Origin: Desulfocapsa sp. | GTDB lineage: Bacteria; Desulfobacterota; Desulfobulbia; Desulfobulbales; Desulfocapsaceae | Assembly (NCBI GenBank): GCA_022712895.1 | Contig: JAFLJS010000042.1 | Span: forward strand, 1 to 64,000 | Length of the DNA: 64,000 bases | Direction: 5' to 3' | Part shown: positions 17,937 through 27,884 of the stretch, in pieces | How positions within the stretch are numbered: the stretch's first letter is position 1 | How the letters are laid out: every line of letters begins with the position of its first letter | The notes under the pieces: generated by a model | The model's database searches: none | What the model was told of the DNA's origin: nothing | What the model saw: only the letters and a program-made list of their open reading frames with translations | Made by a program: the position numbers and the translations under genes

Positions 17937-18677
17937 TTACAAACCTCCGTTTACTTCAAGCACGCTGCCACTGATATAGGCTGCTTCCTTAGAGGCTAGA
18001 AAAAGAACTGCTGCGGCAACTTCCTCAACTTTACCAAAGCGTCGCATAGGGATCGTTTTCTTGTAGGCTTTTACTTGCTCAGGAGACAGATCTGCAATCA
18101 GTTCTGTCTCTATAAATCCAGGTGATACACAGTTAACAGTAATCTTTTTTCGTGCAGTTTCTTTACATAAACTTCTGGTAAACCCTATTTGTCCAGCTTT
18201 TGAAGCACCGTAATTTGTTTGCCCGGCAATGCCTATGGAGGCAACTGGGGAGGTTATATTGATAATCCGTCCGTATTTTTGCTTGAGCATAAGCAGAACT
18301 GCATGTTTACACATGTTAAAGGTACCGCCCAGATTTATATCAATAACCTGTTGCCAGCTTTCATGATCCATCAATGCCAGCAGCTTATCTTTACGAATAC
18401 CCGCATTATTAATGAGGATATCTATAGTATCGAAACGTTCTTCAATATTTACAAAAAAAGCTGCTACTTGGGCCGGGTCAGAAACGTCGCACTGGTGAAG
18501 CTCTAAACGTTCTCCATAGGCTGCACATTCAAGCTGAAACCCGTCTGCACTTTCTTTGTTGCCACCGTAGATACCAATGACCAAAGCTCCTTCCTCAAGA
18601 AAAGCGAGACTAAGAGCCTTGCCAATTCCTCGGCTGGCCCCGGTTATAACTACTTTCTGTCCACTATATTTTTTCAT
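17937..18677 (-). CDS. FabG-like 3-oxoacyl-ACP reductase of the lipid cluster
   Basis: A 246-residue classical SDR. It has the cofactor motif TGASRGIG at 12-19, NNAG at 90-93, Ser143, and the catalytic YGASK with Tyr156/Lys160. The predicted role is NADPH-dependent reduction of 3-oxoacyl-ACP. Its ATG overlaps the stop of the upstream CrtI-like gene by four bases. It has the C-terminal ISGSVLEVNGGL element typical of FabG. Confidence 0.88.
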   Translation of the reverse strand: MKKYSGQKVVITGASRGIGKALSLAFLEEGALVIGIYGGNKESADGFQLECAAYGERLELHQCDVSDPAQVAAFFVNIEERFDTIDILINNAGIRKDKLLALMDHESWQQVIDINLGGTFNMCKHAVLLMLKQKYGRIINITSPVASIGIAGQTNYGASKAGQIGFTRSLCKETARKKITVNCVSPGFIETELIADLSPEQVKAYKKTIPMRRFGKVEEVAAAVLFLASKEAAYISGSVLEVNGGL

Positions 18678-20089
18678 GTAATAGTTCTCATATACGCATC
18701 GACATCATTTGAGACGATAACACCATAATTAATAGCTCCAAGCCAGCCAGACATGATAATTCCAACAGACCCAACATGGAACAGTCCACTGACTTCTTTA
18801 AAAATATTACGGGAGATATCAAGGCCTTCAAACTTCGTTCCAAAAGATGTCCCCTGAGTGTGCAAGGTGTAGCGGTTAAATGTCTTTGGGGTTGCTGCTT
18901 CTATCCAGTCCATTTTGTCTTTTGCACCTGGCAGATAGCGATCAAGGTCAATAAGGGCTCTGTCGATAAGGTTTTGTTTTTCAATTGCGTAGGTTTCTTC
19001 CGATAAACTGTTCCAGTCTTCAAAGTTGGAGTTCATGGAAGCGACAATGGTGTAGCGATCGTGTCCGGGGCGTGTTTTGGGATAATAAACAGAAAAAGTT
19101 TTTGATTTGGTGGTAAAATCACACAACTCTGAAGAATCAAATTCTTCAGCAGTGGATGTAAAAAGAAGGTCGCCAATATCATCAATCTTTTCTTCTTTTT
19201 TGATACCCATATAGACTTGGCAGGAGGAGTTATTGACCCGTATCTTGTCAGCTTTCGCCATGAAATCATCACTGAAGGAATCAATTCCGGCAAGGTTGTA
19301 GATGGTATTGGTAATACCGGAGTTAGAAACTACAGAACCACACTCAATCAACTTTCCCTGAACCTCAACGCCTCGTACCACGCCATTATCAACAACGATG
19401 CGATCTACTTTTGCGGAGGTACAGATGGTAACTCCATTTTTCTCAAGCTCATCGGTCATCATACCGATTAATTTATCTGTGCCACCTTCAAAGGTAAACA
19501 CTCCTTTATTCATAAAGTTGGAAAAAACAATACCATATGTGATAGCAGGATCGTTAAGGGTTGAGCCATTGGCATAACTGATGGGTTCCATGAGCAGTCG
19601 ATGCACATCAGATCGCCCTGGGAAGAACTCTTCAAAAAGTTCCCTTGTGGTCATTGACTGATCATCGTAAAAATTCATTCCAGCTACCCTGCTGAAAAAA
19701 GCATTAATCGTAGACTCTGGAATCTTGAATTGTTTATTGAGTTTTTCAGTAAAATCTAAGCGGTCAAAGGTGGTTTCAAGGTGGAACTGAGGATTATCAA
19801 AGACAATATTTTTTAACTGAACAATGGAATTCATAATTTCCTTGTTCCAGTATTTTTTACAGGTCTTGACCATGCCATAAGGGAAACCATGCAAAGAAAC
19901 ATCAAAAATATGCCCTTTGCGTTTGAACCAGGTAGCAAGTCCACCAAGTTGGGTATGGTACTCAAGAAGCAGAACCTTGTAACCGCAGTAAGCGAGGCGA
20001 TTAGCTGATGTGAGTCCACCGAGTCCTGAGCCTATAATGATTACGTCATATCTATTTGCAAGTGCTGCTTTAGCGAATGAAACTGGCAT
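18674..20089 (-). CDS. CrtI/phytoene-desaturase-like FAD oxidoreductase 1
   Basis: A 471-residue flavoprotein. The N-terminal dinucleotide-binding motif is VIIIGSGLGGLTSANRLAY followed by LLEYHTQLGGLATWF, the pattern of the phytoene desaturase / retinol saturase family. The C-terminal FAD motif region is LFHVGSVGIIMSGWLGAINYG. The family isomerises, saturates or desaturates polyene or acyl substrates. It is sandwiched between a second CrtI-like gene and the FabG-like gene, so an acyl- or polyenyl-ACP substrate is a reasonable inference; the actual reaction is unknown. Confidence 0.82.
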   Translation of the reverse strand: MPVSFAKAALANRYDVIIIGSGLGGLTSANRLAYCGYKVLLLEYHTQLGGLATWFKRKGHIFDVSLHGFPYGMVKTCKKYWNKEIMNSIVQLKNIVFDNPQFHLETTFDRLDFTEKLNKQFKIPESTINAFFSRVAGMNFYDDQSMTTRELFEEFFPGRSDVHRLLMEPISYANGSTLNDPAITYGIVFSNFMNKGVFTFEGGTDKLIGMMTDELEKNGVTICTSAKVDRIVVDNGVVRGVEVQGKLIECGSVVSNSGITNTIYNLAGIDSFSDDFMAKADKIRVNNSSCQVYMGIKKEEKIDDIGDLLFTSTAEEFDSSELCDFTTKSKTFSVYYPKTRPGHDRYTIVASMNSNFEDWNSLSEETYAIEKQNLIDRALIDLDRYLPGAKDKMDWIEAATPKTFNRYTLHTQGTSFGTKFEGLDISRNIFKEVSGLFHVGSVGIIMSGWLGAINYGVIVSNDVDAYMRTIT

Positions 20090-20124
20090 AGTGTGAATGA
20101 AGTAAGAGGGTAGTACTCGTACCT

Positions 20125-21510
20125 TCAGATACGAGTCAGAATATGTTGATTAATAATGGAAACACCACTGAGCATGGCGCCAACAATCCCTAAAAAACCC
20201 TGGTCTGTACCAGCCAGGAAAAGATTGTCATATCCAATGTCGCCATCTTTGATTTTGCTTGGATTGCCGTAAATCGCACCTTCTTTTTTTGCAGTAAATC
20301 GCTCAATTGTCAGTGGTGTGAAAGTATCACGATATACTATATCTTCGGCAAAATTACCAAGGATTTTCTCAGCAACAGCAAGAGAAGAACGTGCAGTGTC
20401 GTCTTTTACTGAATTATATACAGATCTATTTTCAGCATGTTTTTTCCACAGCTTATAACTGGCAAGGTGCGTGGTTCGTATTTCTTTATATGGCAAGGAG
20501 GCCAGATTTTGAAAATTCTGGGGCATACAGATGACTCCAGATCTGAAATCGACGGTTTCCTGCGGGCTACTGTAATTAAATGTTGCAGCAGTATTAAAAA
20601 ATATAATGGTATTATCTGCTGCTTTTTTAAGTTTTGTAGCCGGTGGGATTTCAAAAATTGTTTCTACAAAGCCAAGTCTCGGTAATTTTTTAATTTTTGA
20701 AGATTCACCAAGTAATTCAAAAGTTTCTTCAGACCCTGCGGTTGAGAGCATGTAATCACACCGTATCTCCTCACCACTGGTCAGTTCAACGCCCAGGACC
20801 TTCTTGCCGTCTGTGAGTATTCGTTGCACGCAGGACTTTGTACGGACTTTACCGCCATACCCTTTGTAATGATTCTCAAGGAGGTCCAGCAGATCTTTAA
20901 TGGTACCGCCGGGCCGAAACATACCTTCCAGGAAAATAGCTCTGAACATAATGACAAACTGACCAAGATCCATATCATTTTCTATGGATGAACCGTAATA
21001 CATTAACGGACAGAGCAACATATCTGTCAGTAAATCATTGTGTAGCTTGTCCTGAATAACCTTTCTTGCTGAGATGAAATCTGCTGGCGCAAATGGATCG
21101 TAAGCATCTATCAGGGTCAAAAGCTCTGTGAAACCAGCGTAGCTTGATGGAAACTTCAGTTCGATTTCTCTACAAAACAATGAGAAATCATTGGAAAAAC
21201 GTAAGGACTCCTGGCCCTGAAAAAGAATTTCACTATGGACCTGTTCGTGTAAATCCAGTTCCTTTCGTTTGATTTTTAGTTGTCTCAGAAGACGATTCAG
21301 CGGTGCTTTTTTATCTTTAGGATTTGCGTAGTTAGTGATAGCGTGGAGGCCAGTTTCGAAAAGTCTTTTATTGCGGTAGTAGTAGGAATTAAGGCCACCA
21401 AGTCGGGAATGCTGTTCAAGGATAAGTACATCTGGAATGAATCGGGCAAAACGTAGAGCGGCGGCAAGCCCCGAAAGACCGCCGCCGATAATAAGAAGTG
21501 GGACGTGCAC
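20125..21510 (-). CDS. CrtI/phytoene-desaturase-like FAD oxidoreductase 2
   Basis: A 461-residue paralogue of the preceding enzyme. It has LLIIGGGLSGLAAALRFAR and LEQHSRLGGLNSYYY at the N-terminus and LFLAGTDQGFLGIVGAMLSG at the C-terminus. It lies 3 nt downstream of the ACP gene. Two divergent CrtI-like enzymes next to a dedicated ACP and KAS is uncommon and suggests sequential oxidation/isomerisation of an ACP-bound chain. The function is not established. Confidence 0.82.
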   Translation of the reverse strand: MHVPLLIIGGGLSGLAAALRFARFIPDVLILEQHSRLGGLNSYYYRNKRLFETGLHAITNYANPKDKKAPLNRLLRQLKIKRKELDLHEQVHSEILFQGQESLRFSNDFSLFCREIELKFPSSYAGFTELLTLIDAYDPFAPADFISARKVIQDKLHNDLLTDMLLCPLMYYGSSIENDMDLGQFVIMFRAIFLEGMFRPGGTIKDLLDLLENHYKGYGGKVRTKSCVQRILTDGKKVLGVELTSGEEIRCDYMLSTAGSEETFELLGESSKIKKLPRLGFVETIFEIPPATKLKKAADNTIIFFNTAATFNYSSPQETVDFRSGVICMPQNFQNLASLPYKEIRTTHLASYKLWKKHAENRSVYNSVKDDTARSSLAVAEKILGNFAEDIVYRDTFTPLTIERFTAKKEGAIYGNPSKIKDGDIGYDNLFLAGTDQGFLGIVGAMLSGVSIINQHILTRI

Positions 21511-21513
21511 CTT

Positions 21514-21765
21514 TTAAGCGTCTTTTAACAGTGGTTCCAGATAGTTTACACAGGAATCAAGGGTTGCAAGTTCTGGATAATCTTCTTCTGGAATCTGTAA
21601 TTTGTGACGTTTGCGAAGTTCCATGACAATATCCAAAAAATCCATGGAATCAAGGTCTAACTGATCGCGCAAGGGCTTGTCTGACTCAAGGGTATCAAAA
21701 TCGGCATCTTCGTCAATATCTTCTATAATTTCAAGGACTAGATCCTTAATAGCATCGCGTGTCAT
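21514..21765 (-). CDS. Acyl carrier protein of the lipid cluster
   Basis: An 83-residue acidic four-helix ACP. The phosphopantetheine attachment site is Ser40 in LDLDSMDFLDIV. The acidic helix II around it matches type II ACPs. It sits between the KAS gene and the CrtI-like genes, so it is probably the dedicated carrier for this pathway rather than the housekeeping AcpP, which normally sits in a fab operon. Confidence 0.92.
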   Translation of the reverse strand: MTRDAIKDLVLEIIEDIDEDADFDTLESDKPLRDQLDLDSMDFLDIVMELRKRHKLQIPEEDYPELATLDSCVNYLEPLLKDA

Positions 21766-21904
21766 ATGTTTCTCCGGCCATGGCCTGTATTCAATTAGAA
21801 AAAGTACTTAATACATAGGGCAAACTAGGGTTTATACCATACCTGAAGAATCTTTTTAACTACTTTTTTGAAAAACCGACCAAATTTGTACAGCTTGCTG
21901 TTTA

Positions 21905-23140
21905 TTACACTTTTTTAACAATAATCACAGAGTTTATGCCAATCATACCAAAAGAGTTGTTGAGGATTGTATTAACTGAATCCAGTTGTATGGCATCTCC
22001 AATGACCAAATTATTCAGTTCACATTCCGGATCAAGATCGGTAACGTTAATAGTTGGGTGAACTTTATTGTCAGTGAAGGCGGAAAGATTACCGGCGAGT
22101 TCTAATACGCCAGCAGCCCCCATGGCATGGCCAATGATTGATTTAGTATTGTTGATATAGGTGTTCTTTGAGTTTCCAAAAACGGTGCGTATTGCTTTAC
22201 ACTCCTCAATGTCACCCTGTTTGGTTCCGGTGGCATGGGTGTTGACTATATCAATATCTTCTGCCTGTAAACCAGCTCTTTCCAGGGCAAGTTCCATGCA
22301 TTCTGCCTGTCTCTTACTGTATGGCAGCACGTAATCACGGGCATCGGAATTCATGGCATAACCAACAATCTCTGCATAAATAGTTGCACCACGTTCAAGG
22401 GCATTCTCAAGGGTCTCAAGGACATAAATACAGGCGCCTTCTGAAACAACAATACCATCCCTTGATTTATCAAAAGGCCTACAGGCCTGTCGTGGGTCAT
22501 CAGCAGAACCAAGTGCTCCCTGAGCCTGAAAACTTGCAAAGATACCAAAAGAGCCGGTGGACTCGGATATCCCTCCAGCAAGGGCCATGTCAACCTCTCC
22601 AAGGCGCATCATCTGCACTCCCTGAATAAGCGATGCGTTACCGGCAGCGCAAGCTGCACCGATGGAATAATGAGGTCCGGTTATACCAAGATTCATGGTT
22701 ATTTCACCAGCCGGATTATTTAGAACTGTGCGGGGATTATGGTGGTGAGTCCAGTAATCTACGTCGTAATCATATTGACTGATATTGTAGACCTCGTTTT
22801 CCGTTTCAACGGTTCCGTGTTCAGTTAGACCTACGTAGACACCAATTCTTGATTTTCCGTAATGCTCAACAGTTAATCCTGCGTCCTGTAGAGCTTCATT
22901 GGCACAATAGACCCCAAGGCACCCTGCACGTGTACCACGTTTATTTTCTTTCTTTTTTCTATAGCGAGTTTCATCGAATGTACAGATCCCTGCTGGTGCC
23001 TTTCCAAAATAACGCAGGTCGACTTCTGTTATTTCACTGATGCCTGCCAGGAGTTTTTCTCGATAACTTTCGAGGTTATCGGCATTCGGAGCTGCGAGTC
23101 CTACCCCTGTAATAACAATTCTATGATTTTTAATGGACAT
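21905..23140 (-). CDS. FabF-type beta-ketoacyl-ACP synthase of the lipid cluster
   Basis: A 411-residue KAS of the FabF/KAS II type with an intact Cys-His-His triad: Cys164 in GAACAAGNAS, His302 in NTHATGTKQGD and His338 in KSIIGHAMGAAG. It should perform decarboxylative Claisen condensation on ACP-bound chains. It is the first gene of the minus-strand run KAS-ACP-CrtI-CrtI-FabG-FabZ. An active-site Cys distinguishes it from chain-length-factor or decarboxylase homologues. Confidence 0.9.
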   Translation of the reverse strand: MSIKNHRIVITGVGLAAPNADNLESYREKLLAGISEITEVDLRYFGKAPAGICTFDETRYRKKKENKRGTRAGCLGVYCANEALQDAGLTVEHYGKSRIGVYVGLTEHGTVETENEVYNISQYDYDVDYWTHHHNPRTVLNNPAGEITMNLGITGPHYSIGAACAAGNASLIQGVQMMRLGEVDMALAGGISESTGSFGIFASFQAQGALGSADDPRQACRPFDKSRDGIVVSEGACIYVLETLENALERGATIYAEIVGYAMNSDARDYVLPYSKRQAECMELALERAGLQAEDIDIVNTHATGTKQGDIEECKAIRTVFGNSKNTYINNTKSIIGHAMGAAGVLELAGNLSAFTDNKVHPTINVTDLDPECELNNLVIGDAIQLDSVNTILNNSFGMIGINSVIIVKKV

Positions 23141-25146: not shown

Positions 25147-25224
25147 TGGGGTGAGTGATGGGACTTGAACCCACGACCTCCTGGGCCACAACCAGGTGCT
25201 ACCACCAGCTGAGCTACACCCACC
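25147..25224 (-). tRNA. hisT-like tRNA-His: tRNA-His (anticodon GTG)
   Basis: The minus strand folds as a full cloverleaf. The acceptor stem GTGGGTG pairs with CACTCAC; the anticodon loop TTGTGGC carries GTG; the T-arm is GTGGGTTCAAGTCCC. The His-specific extra G(-1) is encoded at 25224, opposite the discriminator C, and CCA is encoded at 25149-25147. Confidence 0.96.
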
Positions 25225-25288: not shown

Positions 25289-25939
25289 TTACAAGTCGCT
25301 CTTACAATGCATACATTTTTTGGCCTGAGCTTTGATCAGTTCAGCACAAAAAGAACATTCTTTCTGGCAATTATCCTTAAGAAGCTTTTGAATGACAAGA
25401 TTTGTTGCTTGAGTAAATTCTGTTTTTTTGAAGGTATGATTTCTAATGGCATCAATGCAGGAGAGATCGTTAAAACGAACCAGCATCTCCACTGCTCTTT
25501 TTCTGCCGGCAGGAGTGGCAGCTTCATCAAGGATAAGTGTCATAACTGGTTTAATATCCTTGTCTGCAAGGCATGTATCAAGAGCAGCTAATGCTTCTTT
25601 CTCCTTTTTGTAGCGTACATTCTGCATCTTAATCTCTTCAAGATCAAGAATAGAGCCGGTAAATGCCATTTCGGATGCAACCATCATGACATTCAGTTCC
25701 TTAGAGCCTGGAAGTTGCATGTTACGGAATGTTCCTTTATGTCCATAATTGACATCTACTTTTTTCCAGCCATTGACAAATGGAGGGCATTCGTCGTTCA
25801 AACAGATAAAGAGCACTTCTGATCCCCAACCAAGGCCATCTCCGACATGAACAGGAGGCGCCTCACAAGGGGTCATGGGAGCATTACAATCAGGGCAGGT
25901 ATGTTCTTCATCGAGAACAGAAAGATTATTAAGATACAT
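25289..25939 (-). CDS. Zinc-ribbon protein with helical repeat-like middle
   Basis: A 216-residue protein with two metal-binding ends. Near the N-terminus CPDCNAP (Cys15, Cys18) with CLNDECPP forms one treble-clef-like cluster; the C-terminus ends in CSFCAELIKAQAKKCMHCKSDL, a zinc ribbon. The middle is helical, with AATPAGRKRAVEMLVRF resembling a HEAT-like unit. It lies 36 nt downstream of the candidate selenoprotein and probably shares its transcript. The function is unknown. Confidence 0.78.
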   Translation of the reverse strand: MYLNNLSVLDEEHTCPDCNAPMTPCEAPPVHVGDGLGWGSEVLFICLNDECPPFVNGWKKVDVNYGHKGTFRNMQLPGSKELNVMMVASEMAFTGSILDLEEIKMQNVRYKKEKEALAALDTCLADKDIKPVMTLILDEAATPAGRKRAVEMLVRFNDLSCIDAIRNHTFKKTEFTQATNLVIQKLLKDNCQKECSFCAELIKAQAKKCMHCKSDL

Positions 25940-25975: not shown

Positions 25976-26209
25976 TTATTCTTTAACAACTATGGGCCTG
26001 TCTACTTTTTGAAAACTTTCAGGAATGGCACACTGATCCCCTTCAGACTGAAGGAAGGATGGGCCTCAGCCCCCACCTTTGGAGGAGACAAAGATATAAA
26101 ACAGAAACCAACAGCCGATGATGATGAGAAATGTTTTATTTCCAGTCAGTTTTTTCTTTTTTTGTTCAGTCTCACCTGGGTTTTGATCTGATTCCACCTG
26201 GTCACCCAT
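25976..26209 (-). CDS. Candidate selenoprotein, small single-span membrane protein (in-frame UGA)
   Basis: A 77-residue product if the TGA at 26066-26068 is decoded as selenocysteine. It has a charged cytosolic start ending in QKKKK, a transmembrane helix at about 26-43 (KTFLIIIGCWFLFYIF), then a Gly-rich stretch SSKGGG, the UGA (codon 48), GPSFLQSEGDQC and a hydrophilic tail to a TAA. The frame stays open and protein-like on both sides of the UGA. The ATG overlaps the stop of the upstream PheA-TyrA gene (ATGGGTGA), showing coupled translation. Five nt after the UGA the RNA folds AUCC/GGAU, a two-U bulge, then CCUUCA/UGAAGG closed by GUC; the loop begins 17 nt from the UGA. A bulged U and a G-U in the loop are hallmarks of the E. 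coli fdhF SECIS. The layout (one helix then Gly-rich region with U) resembles eukaryotic SelK/SelS, probably by convergence. The selenoprotein call is inference; the ORF geometry is seen directly. Confidence 0.7.
26036..26060 (-). promoter_or_regulatory. Bacterial SECIS-like hairpin
   Basis: Lower stem AUCC/GGAU (26060-26057 with 26039-26036), unpaired UU, upper stem CCUUCA/UGAAGG and loop GUC. It begins 5 nt downstream of the in-frame TGA. Spacing, bulge and loop fit the known SelB-binding element. Confidence 0.6.
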
Positions 26210-27884
26210 TGGGTTTTGACAGTACAGAATCAACAGCTTTTGACCGTTTCATATGCTCAGCAAGAAATTGTGGGCTGAGATGAGATTTACTGTTGTCTAT
26301 TATGTCACAAAGTCCGGGAATATCCTGAGCTTCAGCCATTTTGATAACACGTAGTAAATTTTCGGCAAAACTCCGTACTATCTTTCTGCCATCCCCACCT
26401 GTGGACATGATTTCGGCGTAGGTTCGAGGGTTCTGGTTATGAATCCTGGCCATTGCTAAAATACCATACAGAGAGGTAAGGGTGGAGTGGGTTCCAATGT
26501 CTGCACATGCAATTTGATGCTGCTTCAGTGTCATGGCAAGCGCTGTGGAAATAGTGGTCGGTAGTTTTTGTCCAACACCCATTAATAAGTCATGTTTTGT
26601 CGGGCTGTCTTGGGTAATGGCAGCGCCATGTTTATATAAAAACGCCTCAAATTCAGAACAAAACGACCCACTACGTGGTGTACGAACCACTGTGGCATTT
26701 TTATCCTTCATGGTGAGCGCCTGTGGTCCCCACAGGTTATGAACCAGCATTACCTCTACACCTTTACTGGTGACTTCCGTAGCTGCGTGTAGGGTCTGTT
26801 CAGACTCTCCGGCTAGTAGGATGAGCGCCTGTCCATCTTCTAAAAGGGGGGCGTACTTTTGTATAGTGTCAACGGTTACAGAGATAGGCACACATATTAT
26901 GACTACATCCACCTGTGCAATCATTTCTTCGGGCGTCATAACGGTAGATCTTCCCGTGAGAAATGTTTGATATCCTTCATTTTCGAGACGATCAGCGAAC
27001 CATTCACTCATGGCACCCCTACCAATAAAACCAAAAGAGCGAATCTTTTTAACTCGCATATCAACACGTGGGAAAGAACCTAGTAGACGCACGCTGTCTT
27101 CTTCACGAATTACATCTTTCTCAATGGCTTTCAGGGCATCCTGAAGAAGATCGTTACCAATATGCCCCTCAATTTCGAGGTAGATTTGCAGTTTCTGGGT
27201 TTTGATATCATTTTCTGAGCGCAGATCGAGAATATTGATTCCACGTCTGGTAAATTCCCCCAAGATATCAACGAGCATTCCAACACGGTCTTTGAGCGGC
27301 TTGGTTATGACTGCTGTGGCGTCATAGCCAGTTTCCCCACTGAGATTGCCACCAATTATTGCGAAACGGGTACGGTTGTGAGCTGCGATCTCACGATCCA
27401 GTATCTCAAAACCATGTTCAACCAGAAGCTCTTCCGAATCGACAATGGCATAATTATTTCTATTGTTGCTTTTGATGTCATCCATCGCAACACTAATATC
27501 TGGAACTGTCATGAGTGTTGCATCGGGATAATGCTCACTGATGTAATCGACACACTGTTTAAAAACAGATCCCCGGCCAACAATTATATCAGGTTTAAAT
27601 GATGATTCCTGTTGAAGAGCGGCAAAAGAGAGGTGAATAGGAAGTACCAGATTATCTTCCCAGTACCCATCGTGAAGTAGTTCCTGAAGGCGGAAATATT
27701 CTTTAATCTCACCTTCTCGTGTATTGTAGATAGGGACAAATGCAAAATCCACATTTTCATTTAAAAAAGCATCAATTATATCAGGAACACGGCTGAAAAG
27801 TTTAAGCTCTGCCTCTGGGGAGTACTGCCTAGCAGCTCGATATCCGTCTGAACCGACTGGGCCTAATGTGGCGATTGTGATCAT
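26202..27884 (-). CDS. pheA/tyrA: Prephenate dehydratase-ACT-prephenate dehydrogenase fusion
   Basis: A 560-residue fusion for the last steps of both aromatic amino acid branches. Residues 1-180 are a prephenate dehydratase with the TRF motif at 172-174 (HNRTRFAIIGG); about 195-270 is an ACT regulatory domain (DRVGMLVDILGEF); about 282-560 is a TyrA-type dehydrogenase with NAD motif GFIGRGAM (285-292) and the substrate motif HNLWGPQ with His382. It turns prephenate to phenylpyruvate or 4-hydroxyphenylpyruvate. No chorismate mutase domain is present. Phenylalanine or tyrosine feedback through the ACT domain is likely by family analogy. Confidence 0.88.
   Translation of the reverse strand: MITIATLGPVGSDGYRAARQYSPEAELKLFSRVPDIIDAFLNENVDFAFVPIYNTREGEIKEYFRLQELLHDGYWEDNLVLPIHLSFAALQQESSFKPDIIVGRGSVFKQCVDYISEHYPDATLMTVPDISVAMDDIKSNNRNNYAIVDSEELLVEHGFEILDREIAAHNRTRFAIIGGNLSGETGYDATAVITKPLKDRVGMLVDILGEFTRRGINILDLRSENDIKTQKLQIYLEIEGHIGNDLLQDALKAIEKDVIREEDSVRLLGSFPRVDMRVKKIRSFGFIGRGAMSEWFADRLENEGYQTFLTGRSTVMTPEEMIAQVDVVIICVPISVTVDTIQKYAPLLEDGQALILLAGESEQTLHAATEVTSKGVEVMLVHNLWGPQALTMKDKNATVVRTPRSGSFCSEFEAFLYKHGAAITQDSPTKHDLLMGVGQKLPTTISTALAMTLKQHQIACADIGTHSTLTSLYGILAMARIHNQNPRTYAEIMSTGGDGRKIVRSFAENLLRVIKMAEAQDIPGLCDIIDNSKSHLSPQFLAEHMKRSKAVDSVLSKPNG

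Follow-up and report, generated by a model that had tools for sequence, protein, structure and literature searches.

A probable new family of small membrane selenoproteins encoded upstream of a zinc-ribbon-like protein gene in Desulfobulbales

The window analyzed here (the whole stretch of 64,000 nucleotides from Desulfocapsa sp. contig JAFLJS010000042.1) contains, on its minus strand, a short gene designated X (25976..26209) that is flanked by two genes of the same orientation. Upstream is a gene for a prephenate dehydratase–ACT–prephenate dehydrogenase fusion (26202..27884), which adjoins X in some families only; downstream is a gene (25289..25939), here called the partner, for a protein of 216 aa with an N-terminal CPxC motif, a helical and possibly HEAT-like middle, and a C-terminal zinc-ribbon-like motif. 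With TGA translated as selenocysteine (U), positions 26209 to 25976 (minus strand) give MGDQVESDQNPGETEQKKKKLTGNKTFLIIIGCWFLFYIFVSSKGGG-U-GPSFLQSEGDQCAIPESFQKVDRPIVVKE, a product of 77 aa with one U at codon 48 (26066..26068, minus strand), followed by TAA. The ATG of X shares nucleotides with the stop codon of the gene before it (ATGGGTGA), and 36 nt lie between the end of X and the next gene, which starts at 25939. The first-pass annotation had described a minus-strand frame of 77 codons plus stop with a single TGA at 26066–26068, starting within the stop of pheA/tyrA and ending 36 nt before the next gene; the coordinates hold on retranslation, as do the overlap and the gap, and prephenate dehydratase, ACT, and prephenate dehydrogenase domains are recognized in the upstream gene.

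The X product has a Lys-rich N-terminal tail and a predicted transmembrane helix at approximately residues 26–42 (26084..26134, minus strand; hydrophobicity judged by eye). In an AlphaFold2 model built on the alignment of homologs described below (A1), a helix at residues 22–43 is the only confident element (mean pLDDT of 92 over residues 31–40; overall pLDDT 66). No Pfam or NCBIfam model matched the X protein, no PDB sequence matched A1, and no match in an Rfam scan of the region came near the gathering scores. A tRNA-His gene (gtg; window 25147–25223, minus strand) lies directly 3′ of the partner gene and is the sole tRNA found in the window. Elsewhere on the same strand (18674–23140), two FAD-dependent oxidoreductase-like genes lie beside acyl carrier protein-like and ketoacyl synthase-like genes, judging by eye from the list of open reading frames; this gene group perhaps belongs to a polyene or lipid pathway.

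Homologs were sought with a query and profile that carried Cys in place of U at codon 48, so that Cys homologs would outscore those with TGA. Matches at E ≤ 0.01 were obtained in 38 of 193 related genomes (its own counted), and an in-frame TGA was present at the site in all 39 loci read. The invariant columns of alignment A1 (37 rows) are the TGA, Cys60 (26030..26032, minus strand; both TGT and TGC are used), and Pro63. Among the 257 genomes of the order, 52 matched the profile, and a class-level search gave the same set; 44 of the matches are credible, and all 44 have TGA at the site. The remaining eight were judged to be due to chance, two of them upon reading and six (family f5) because the match was confined to the transmembrane segment, approximately profile positions 9–35, within frames of 376–390 aa; these six were dropped without reading. 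Matches that did not have TGA (G005:C208 and G084:C81) were dropped once read, as were the weak matches in G082, G012, G043, and G081 (L088–L091). One locus (L023, G015:C56) has a second in-frame TGA eight codons past the first that cuts the tail, although a recognizable tail continues beyond it; this could be a second Sec, a mutation, or a sequencing error. Both L023 and L041 (an additional copy, from the genome that carries L009) are excluded from A1 and from the 79 genes considered below, which are related sequences throughout, such that family counts are not independent.

The first-pass annotation had anticipated that orthologs might carry Cys at codon 48, and had regarded a random residue there as evidence against its proposal; TGA occupies the site in all loci read and in all credible profile-found genomes, and Cys homologs aligned at the Sec position, a customary mark of bacterial selenoproteins, were found neither among the genomes of the order, plasmids, and viral contigs nor at the partner locus. 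Of the 79 carrier genomes, 35 were found by synteny only; the profile missed these divergent carriers, and would therefore also miss divergent Cys forms located away from the locus. Thus, distant Cys forms may exist, and the description “Sec-only” holds for the collections searched (order, plasmids, and viral contigs) rather than for all bacteria.

The sequence beyond the UGA evolves as coding sequence. Across 34 of the 36 genes of the subfamily that includes the window gene (type A; L033 and L035 were left out because of indels), codon +12 always encodes Cys (TGT and TGC mixed), codon +15 always encodes Pro (four different codons), and codon +8 always encodes Glu. For codons +9 to +15 the median dN/dS was 0.25, calculated from the 293 usable pairs out of 561 (the 3′ hairpin arm reaches into codon +9); for codons −22 to −1, on the other side of the UGA, it was 0.48. 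The low dN/dS, together with invariant Cys and Pro residues that vary synonymously, indicates that the tail is translated protein. The C-terminal part, the absence of which from homologs would have spoken against the first-pass proposal, is present in type A and under purifying selection. The final stop codons of the 79 genes are mixed (45 TAA, 18 TGA, and 16 TAG), and so a general preference for TGA stops does not explain codon 48.

The partner gene is located 3′ of X on the same strand in 44 of the 45 sequence-found loci (39 read first and six later), at gaps of ~30 to ~310 nt; the exception is L033, a profile-found locus in which the partner is missing from the 3 kb read. A strict scan anchored on the partner found a small frame with one transmembrane segment and, a few residues after it, one in-frame TGA within 450 nt upstream in 86 of 182 non-redundant loci, compared with 2 of 182 when the opposite strand was scanned and 1 of 910 shuffled sequences. 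The same scan with other codons at the site gave sense/antisense counts of 5/3 (Cys), 1/2 (Ser), 0/4 (Trp), 3/2 (TAA), and 1/1 (TAG). As only TGA shows an excess of this kind, the signal belongs to that codon, and a Cys version is not visible at the locus; the five sense Cys frames look like chance on reading. By design the scan demands TGA, and it is silent about copies elsewhere in the genome; furthermore, the 182 loci are not a random sample (many were fetched as X carriers), and 86 of 182 is not a prevalence.

Ahead of the strict scan, more of the transmembrane–TGA frames had been found by reading upstream of the partner, first in 80 stretches from genomes with no credible profile match (tyrA was found in 66), and later in named GTDB records and in families for which tyrA was not seen in the 1.5–2.5 kb read. 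The frame was absent from all 14 loci read from outside the order (L297–L310). Among individual loci, the sense frame of L230 is probably due to chance but is still counted among the 86; X of L034 lies beyond the 450-nt limit and was scored negative; and L268 has a loose frame that failed the strict scan. In 20 genomes of family f1 without X (L092–L111), tyrA and the partner are kept 60–145 nt apart, and X is absent rather than replaced. Two loci of family f5 are unusual: upstream of the partner in L274 (G133) is a sequence resembling a decayed, frameshifted copy of X, and in L269 (G154), given readthrough of the UGA, X continues in frame into the partner gene with no stop, which could represent a natural fusion or decay.

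We assigned the 79 genes to subfamilies A–F and others (names coined in this analysis). Subfamily A (36 genes; family f1, genera g1, g5, and g9) typically has GxG-U-GPSxLRSEGTQCxxP, to which the GGG-UGA-GPS motif highlighted in the first-pass annotation belongs; that motif is present in the window gene but is confined to this one subfamily. Members from family f12 have a different tail (e.g., GTGSS-U-RPYPVAPGGGTQCALP), and include subfamily B (eight genes; e.g., GSS-U-RPFFIAPVGGTGCTLP), subfamily C (10 genes from genus g29 and Desulfobulbus rhabdoformis; e.g., RSGST-U-PISTLPPVGGPPCPLP), subfamily D (five genes from genus g59; e.g., FNGTGLS-U-HKQQKPQFSG), and subfamily E (two genes from genus g55). 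Subfamily F comprises six genes from genus g33 of family f4, and the others are 12 genes from families f3, f5, f6, f10, and f13, including two doubtful members from f5 (L269 and L271) that were retained. A tail Cys is present in every gene of A (36/36) and B (8/8), in 9/10 genes of C, in none of D (0/5), E (0/2), or F (0/6), and in 5/12 of the others, with L269 counted among these five only because its frame enters the partner gene. The residue preceding U is Gly in 32, Ser in 18, and Thr in 16 of the 79 genes, and U follows the best hydrophobic window by 4–10 residues. Almost the only features common to the subfamilies are the transmembrane segment, the Sec codon, and the hairpin, with the UGA present in all of them, by design in the case of the synteny-found genes.

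The RNA of 26068–26033 folds as proposed in the first-pass annotation for 26060–26036: a bSECIS-like hairpin (26036..26060, minus strand) of 4 bp, a UU bulge, 6 bp, and a GUC loop, with the apical loop 17 nt 3′ of the UGA. Published bSECIS constraints are a loop of 3–9 nt, a stem of 4–16 bp, G in the first two loop positions, a spacing of 16–37 nt, and an MFE ≤ −7.5 (PMC13188914, partial text), and the window element falls within the constraints given there (GUC loop, 4 + 6 bp stem with UU bulge, spacing 17, −9.0). The predicted energy of −9.0 kcal/mol corresponds to z = +0.39 relative to dinucleotide shuffles, 135 of 200 of which fold at least as well; being no better than shuffles, the single sequence proves nothing. 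Family-wide comparison with synonymous recodings also gave only a modest energy signal (significant at the 5% level in 23 of 79 genes, none of them in C, E, or F), with median z values of −1.28 (A), −1.48 (B), −0.74 (C), −2.18 (D), +0.78 (E), +0.22 (F), and −1.45 (others); we think that this signal is weak in part because the stem is already dictated by the residues encoded. Folding energy was too weak to serve as sole evidence for a SECIS, and a count of structured hairpins was used instead, defined as at least 4 bp with a loop of 3–7 nt starting 12–27 nt after the UGA and G[GU] from loop position one or two, with no energy limit. Such hairpins are present in 69 of the 79 genes (at 16–24 nt), vs. 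20.7 ± 3.3 (maximum 32) in 200 synonymous recodings and 7.5 (maximum 15) in 100 shuffles. The ten genes without one are all six F genes, the stem of which is interrupted by a C·A mismatch, L269 and L271 (also with an interrupted stem), L032, and L082. The stems are unrelated across subfamilies: CCUUC-GGUC(A)-GAAGG in A, GUUGCAC-CGGGCA-GUGCAAC and GUUCCAC-AGGAUA-GUGGAAC in B, CCGCC-GGUC-GGCGG in C, and CCCGC-AGUUCA-GCGGG in D. The two-U bulge described in the first-pass annotation is not characteristic of the family, most members of which instead share an apical loop that begins with G[G/U].

The Desulfocapsa sp. genome encodes the machinery for selenocysteine insertion, including both selB and selC, on which the first-pass annotation had made its proposal depend, as well as selA. 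Of 10 tRNA-Sec matches, a single one passed the Rfam cut-off (77.3 bits; ARAGORN anticodon tca); SelB was identified as a 644-aa open reading frame (PF09107, 73.1 bits), and SelA at 613.5 bits. With 222 of the 257 genomes in the order encoding it, SelB is nearly universal there, and its co-occurrence with X says little. The SelB wing domain was detected in 70 of the 79 X-bearing genomes, the other nine being fragmented assemblies of 70–730 contigs; for eight of these (G216 was outside this recheck), the full SelB model gave above-cut-off fragments in G001, G199, and G204, a partial match in G019, and nothing convincing in G003, G017, G090, and G092. In six genomes listed as lacking SelB for which the locus was read (G029, G060, G065, G098, G111, and G219), neither the TGA scan nor the Cys scan gave a frame.

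The partner combines an N-terminal CPxC motif accompanied by further conserved Cys residues with a Cys-rich, ribbon-like C-terminal motif. Its middle is helical, with weak whole-sequence matches to designed alphaRep proteins (E-values of 8.5e-6 and worse; no stretch passes alone), and AlphaFold2 predicts helices (overall pLDDT 60); the model had no Foldseek match at E ≤ 0.001, and the sequence matched no Pfam or NCBIfam model. Zinc binding, a HEAT-like fold, and any contact with X are putative. Of the 257 genomes of the order, 229 encode the partner, as do, at E ≤ 1e-8, 80 of 395 genomes of the phylum; the phylum search returned 35 matches at E ≤ 1e-50 covering nearly the whole profile, of which 16 are in the order.

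The conserved TGA, the coding constraint after it, the TGA-specific excess, and the excess of hairpins over recodings, along with the presence of the insertion machinery, support the earlier suggestion of a selenoprotein, and on the basis of this comparative sequence evidence X is in all likelihood a real selenoprotein in which the UGA at codon 48 is read as Sec. Conservation and machinery are consistent with decoding of UGA 48 by the ribosome as Sec, which would be delivered by SelB bound to the hairpin starting 5 nt past the UGA. If the UGA were instead an ordinary stop, X would be a 47-residue membrane protein followed by an untranslated leader with a hairpin. The upstream part is plausible as a protein on its own, TGA is a stop in translation table 11, and the window hairpin is unremarkable by itself; however, purifying selection extends past the UGA and the invariant Cys and Pro vary synonymously, and TGA alone occupies the site, with a TGA-specific excess, though the final stops are mostly TAA, making termination at codon 48 very improbable. 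UGA can also be read through by a near-cognate tRNA, a known process that would insert another amino acid such as Trp, but given that tRNA-Sec, SelA, and SelB are present, that a bSECIS-like hairpin lies at the expected spacing, and that TGG occurs at the site in none of 182 loci on the sense strand, we regard this as scarcely credible.

A further alternative is that Sec decoding at the UGA, via pausing or readthrough, sets the expression of the downstream zinc-ribbon-like gene, in which case X would be a selenium-sensing leader. This would account for the linkage to the partner even where tyrA is not the neighbor (in a scan anchored on the partner), for the shortness of a gene in which little is kept across subfamilies beyond the transmembrane segment, the UGA, and the hairpin, and for the frame of L269 that enters the partner gene. 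Yet a switch needs neither a transmembrane helix nor conserved tail residues, 96 of 182 partner loci do not have such a frame, and the gap between X and the partner varies across the 44 of 45 loci in which it was measured; we therefore consider a leader function improbable. Compatible with Sec insertion is a variant in which the tail is cytosolic and the selenol acts directly with the zinc-ribbon-like partner, by thiol or metal exchange. The partner is genomically linked and by eye has no signal peptide, and K + R residues are more numerous after the helix than before it in 17 of the 79 genes, but the opposite is true of 54 (eight have equal numbers) and the window protein has KKKK before the helix, predicting N-in/C-out, so that a cytosolic tail appears doubtful.

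Returning to the selenoprotein interpretation, the product would span the membrane once, with a Lys-rich N-terminal tail before the helix and a short hydrophilic tail after it, Sec lying a few residues beyond the helix, and the family would be fast-evolving within the order and encoded upstream of the zinc-ribbon/HEAT-like protein gene. From the positive-inside tendency we infer, with moderate confidence, an N-in/C-out topology that would place the Sec tail at the periplasmic membrane surface. The most likely role, which is a guess, would be that of a membrane-anchored selenol, as a redox or nucleophilic residue. Similarly speculative is that types with Cys ~12–14 positions downstream (A, B, and most of C) could join it to Sec in an intramolecular selenenylsulfide, and that types without a tail Cys could pair with a second copy or with some partner molecule, or hold sulfur or a metal. 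The carriers known by name are sulfur-cycle bacteria, a lifestyle that is suggestive only as a clue to the role.

As an undescribed family, as claimed in the first-pass annotation, X withstands the comparisons made here. NCBIfam 20.0 scans of 37 members and 10 representatives of other types matched no selenoprotein model, and no such small membrane family appears among the 119 prokaryotic selenoprotein families of Table 1 of PMC13188914 (partial text); for table entries lacking a model, this comparison used name and motif only, and names alone may fail to exclude every entry. A title and abstract search, with thin coverage of subscription journals and preprints, returned no description of such a family. 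X is thus very probably a new selenoprotein family, on sequence grounds. The deep-Sep study, in its available portion, states that Cys homologs now seem to exist for every known selenoprotein and that the method may miss those without (PMC12013277); its table lists 22 known and no new selenoproteins for Desulfolithobacter dissulfuricans GF1, and the X carrier G169 (L039) has the same base count as that strain (3,596,428). Tentatively, the family could be selenium-obligate, the first bacterial selenoproteins without a Cys counterpart, under selection on little beyond membrane helix, Sec, and hairpin, from Desulfocapsa to cable bacteria, and engaged with the zinc-ribbon-like protein in sulfur, selenium, or metal chemistry at the membrane surface; we hold this to be possible rather than probable, given that 35 divergent carriers escaped the profile, as divergent Cys forms off-locus would have done. 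If it is true, gene finders that require Cys homologs would miss the X family and possibly similar ones. A real family would mean that selenoproteomes are undercounted, and would offer a setting in which selenium was never seen replaced by sulfur, making it testable why cells need selenium over sulfur.

Among described proteins, the hypothetical selenoproteins DG, DW, and DF are likewise domain-less and from Thermodesulfobacteriota, but all of them have Cys homologs according to the available part of the deep-Sep report (PMC12013277), unlike X, for which none was found; their models (NF049953, NF041197, and NF049942, as listed in the partial text of PMC13188914) are absent from the NCBIfam matches of X members. 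FeoB-associated Cys-rich proteins are also small membrane proteins with Cys after the helix, but as relatives they were set aside, with one weak Pfam match in 1 of 37 members (PF12669, E-value 0.55). Selenoproteins K and S are small single-span membrane proteins with a Gly/Ser-rich stretch and Sec in the tail. X shares each of these features but has Sec just after the helix and the SECIS inside the gene; the likeness to SelK/SelS noted in the first-pass annotation extends to layout and not to sequence, Pfam scans of the X family having given no selenoprotein K/S match. Bacterial bSECIS selenoproteins of the fdhF type differ from X, which has no NCBIfam selenoprotein match, no Cys counterpart found, and no recognized fold; nevertheless, X resembles them in its in-frame UGA, in an apical loop that starts with G[G/U] 16–24 nt downstream in 69 of 79 genes, and in the presence of SelA, SelB, and tRNA-Sec in the genome.
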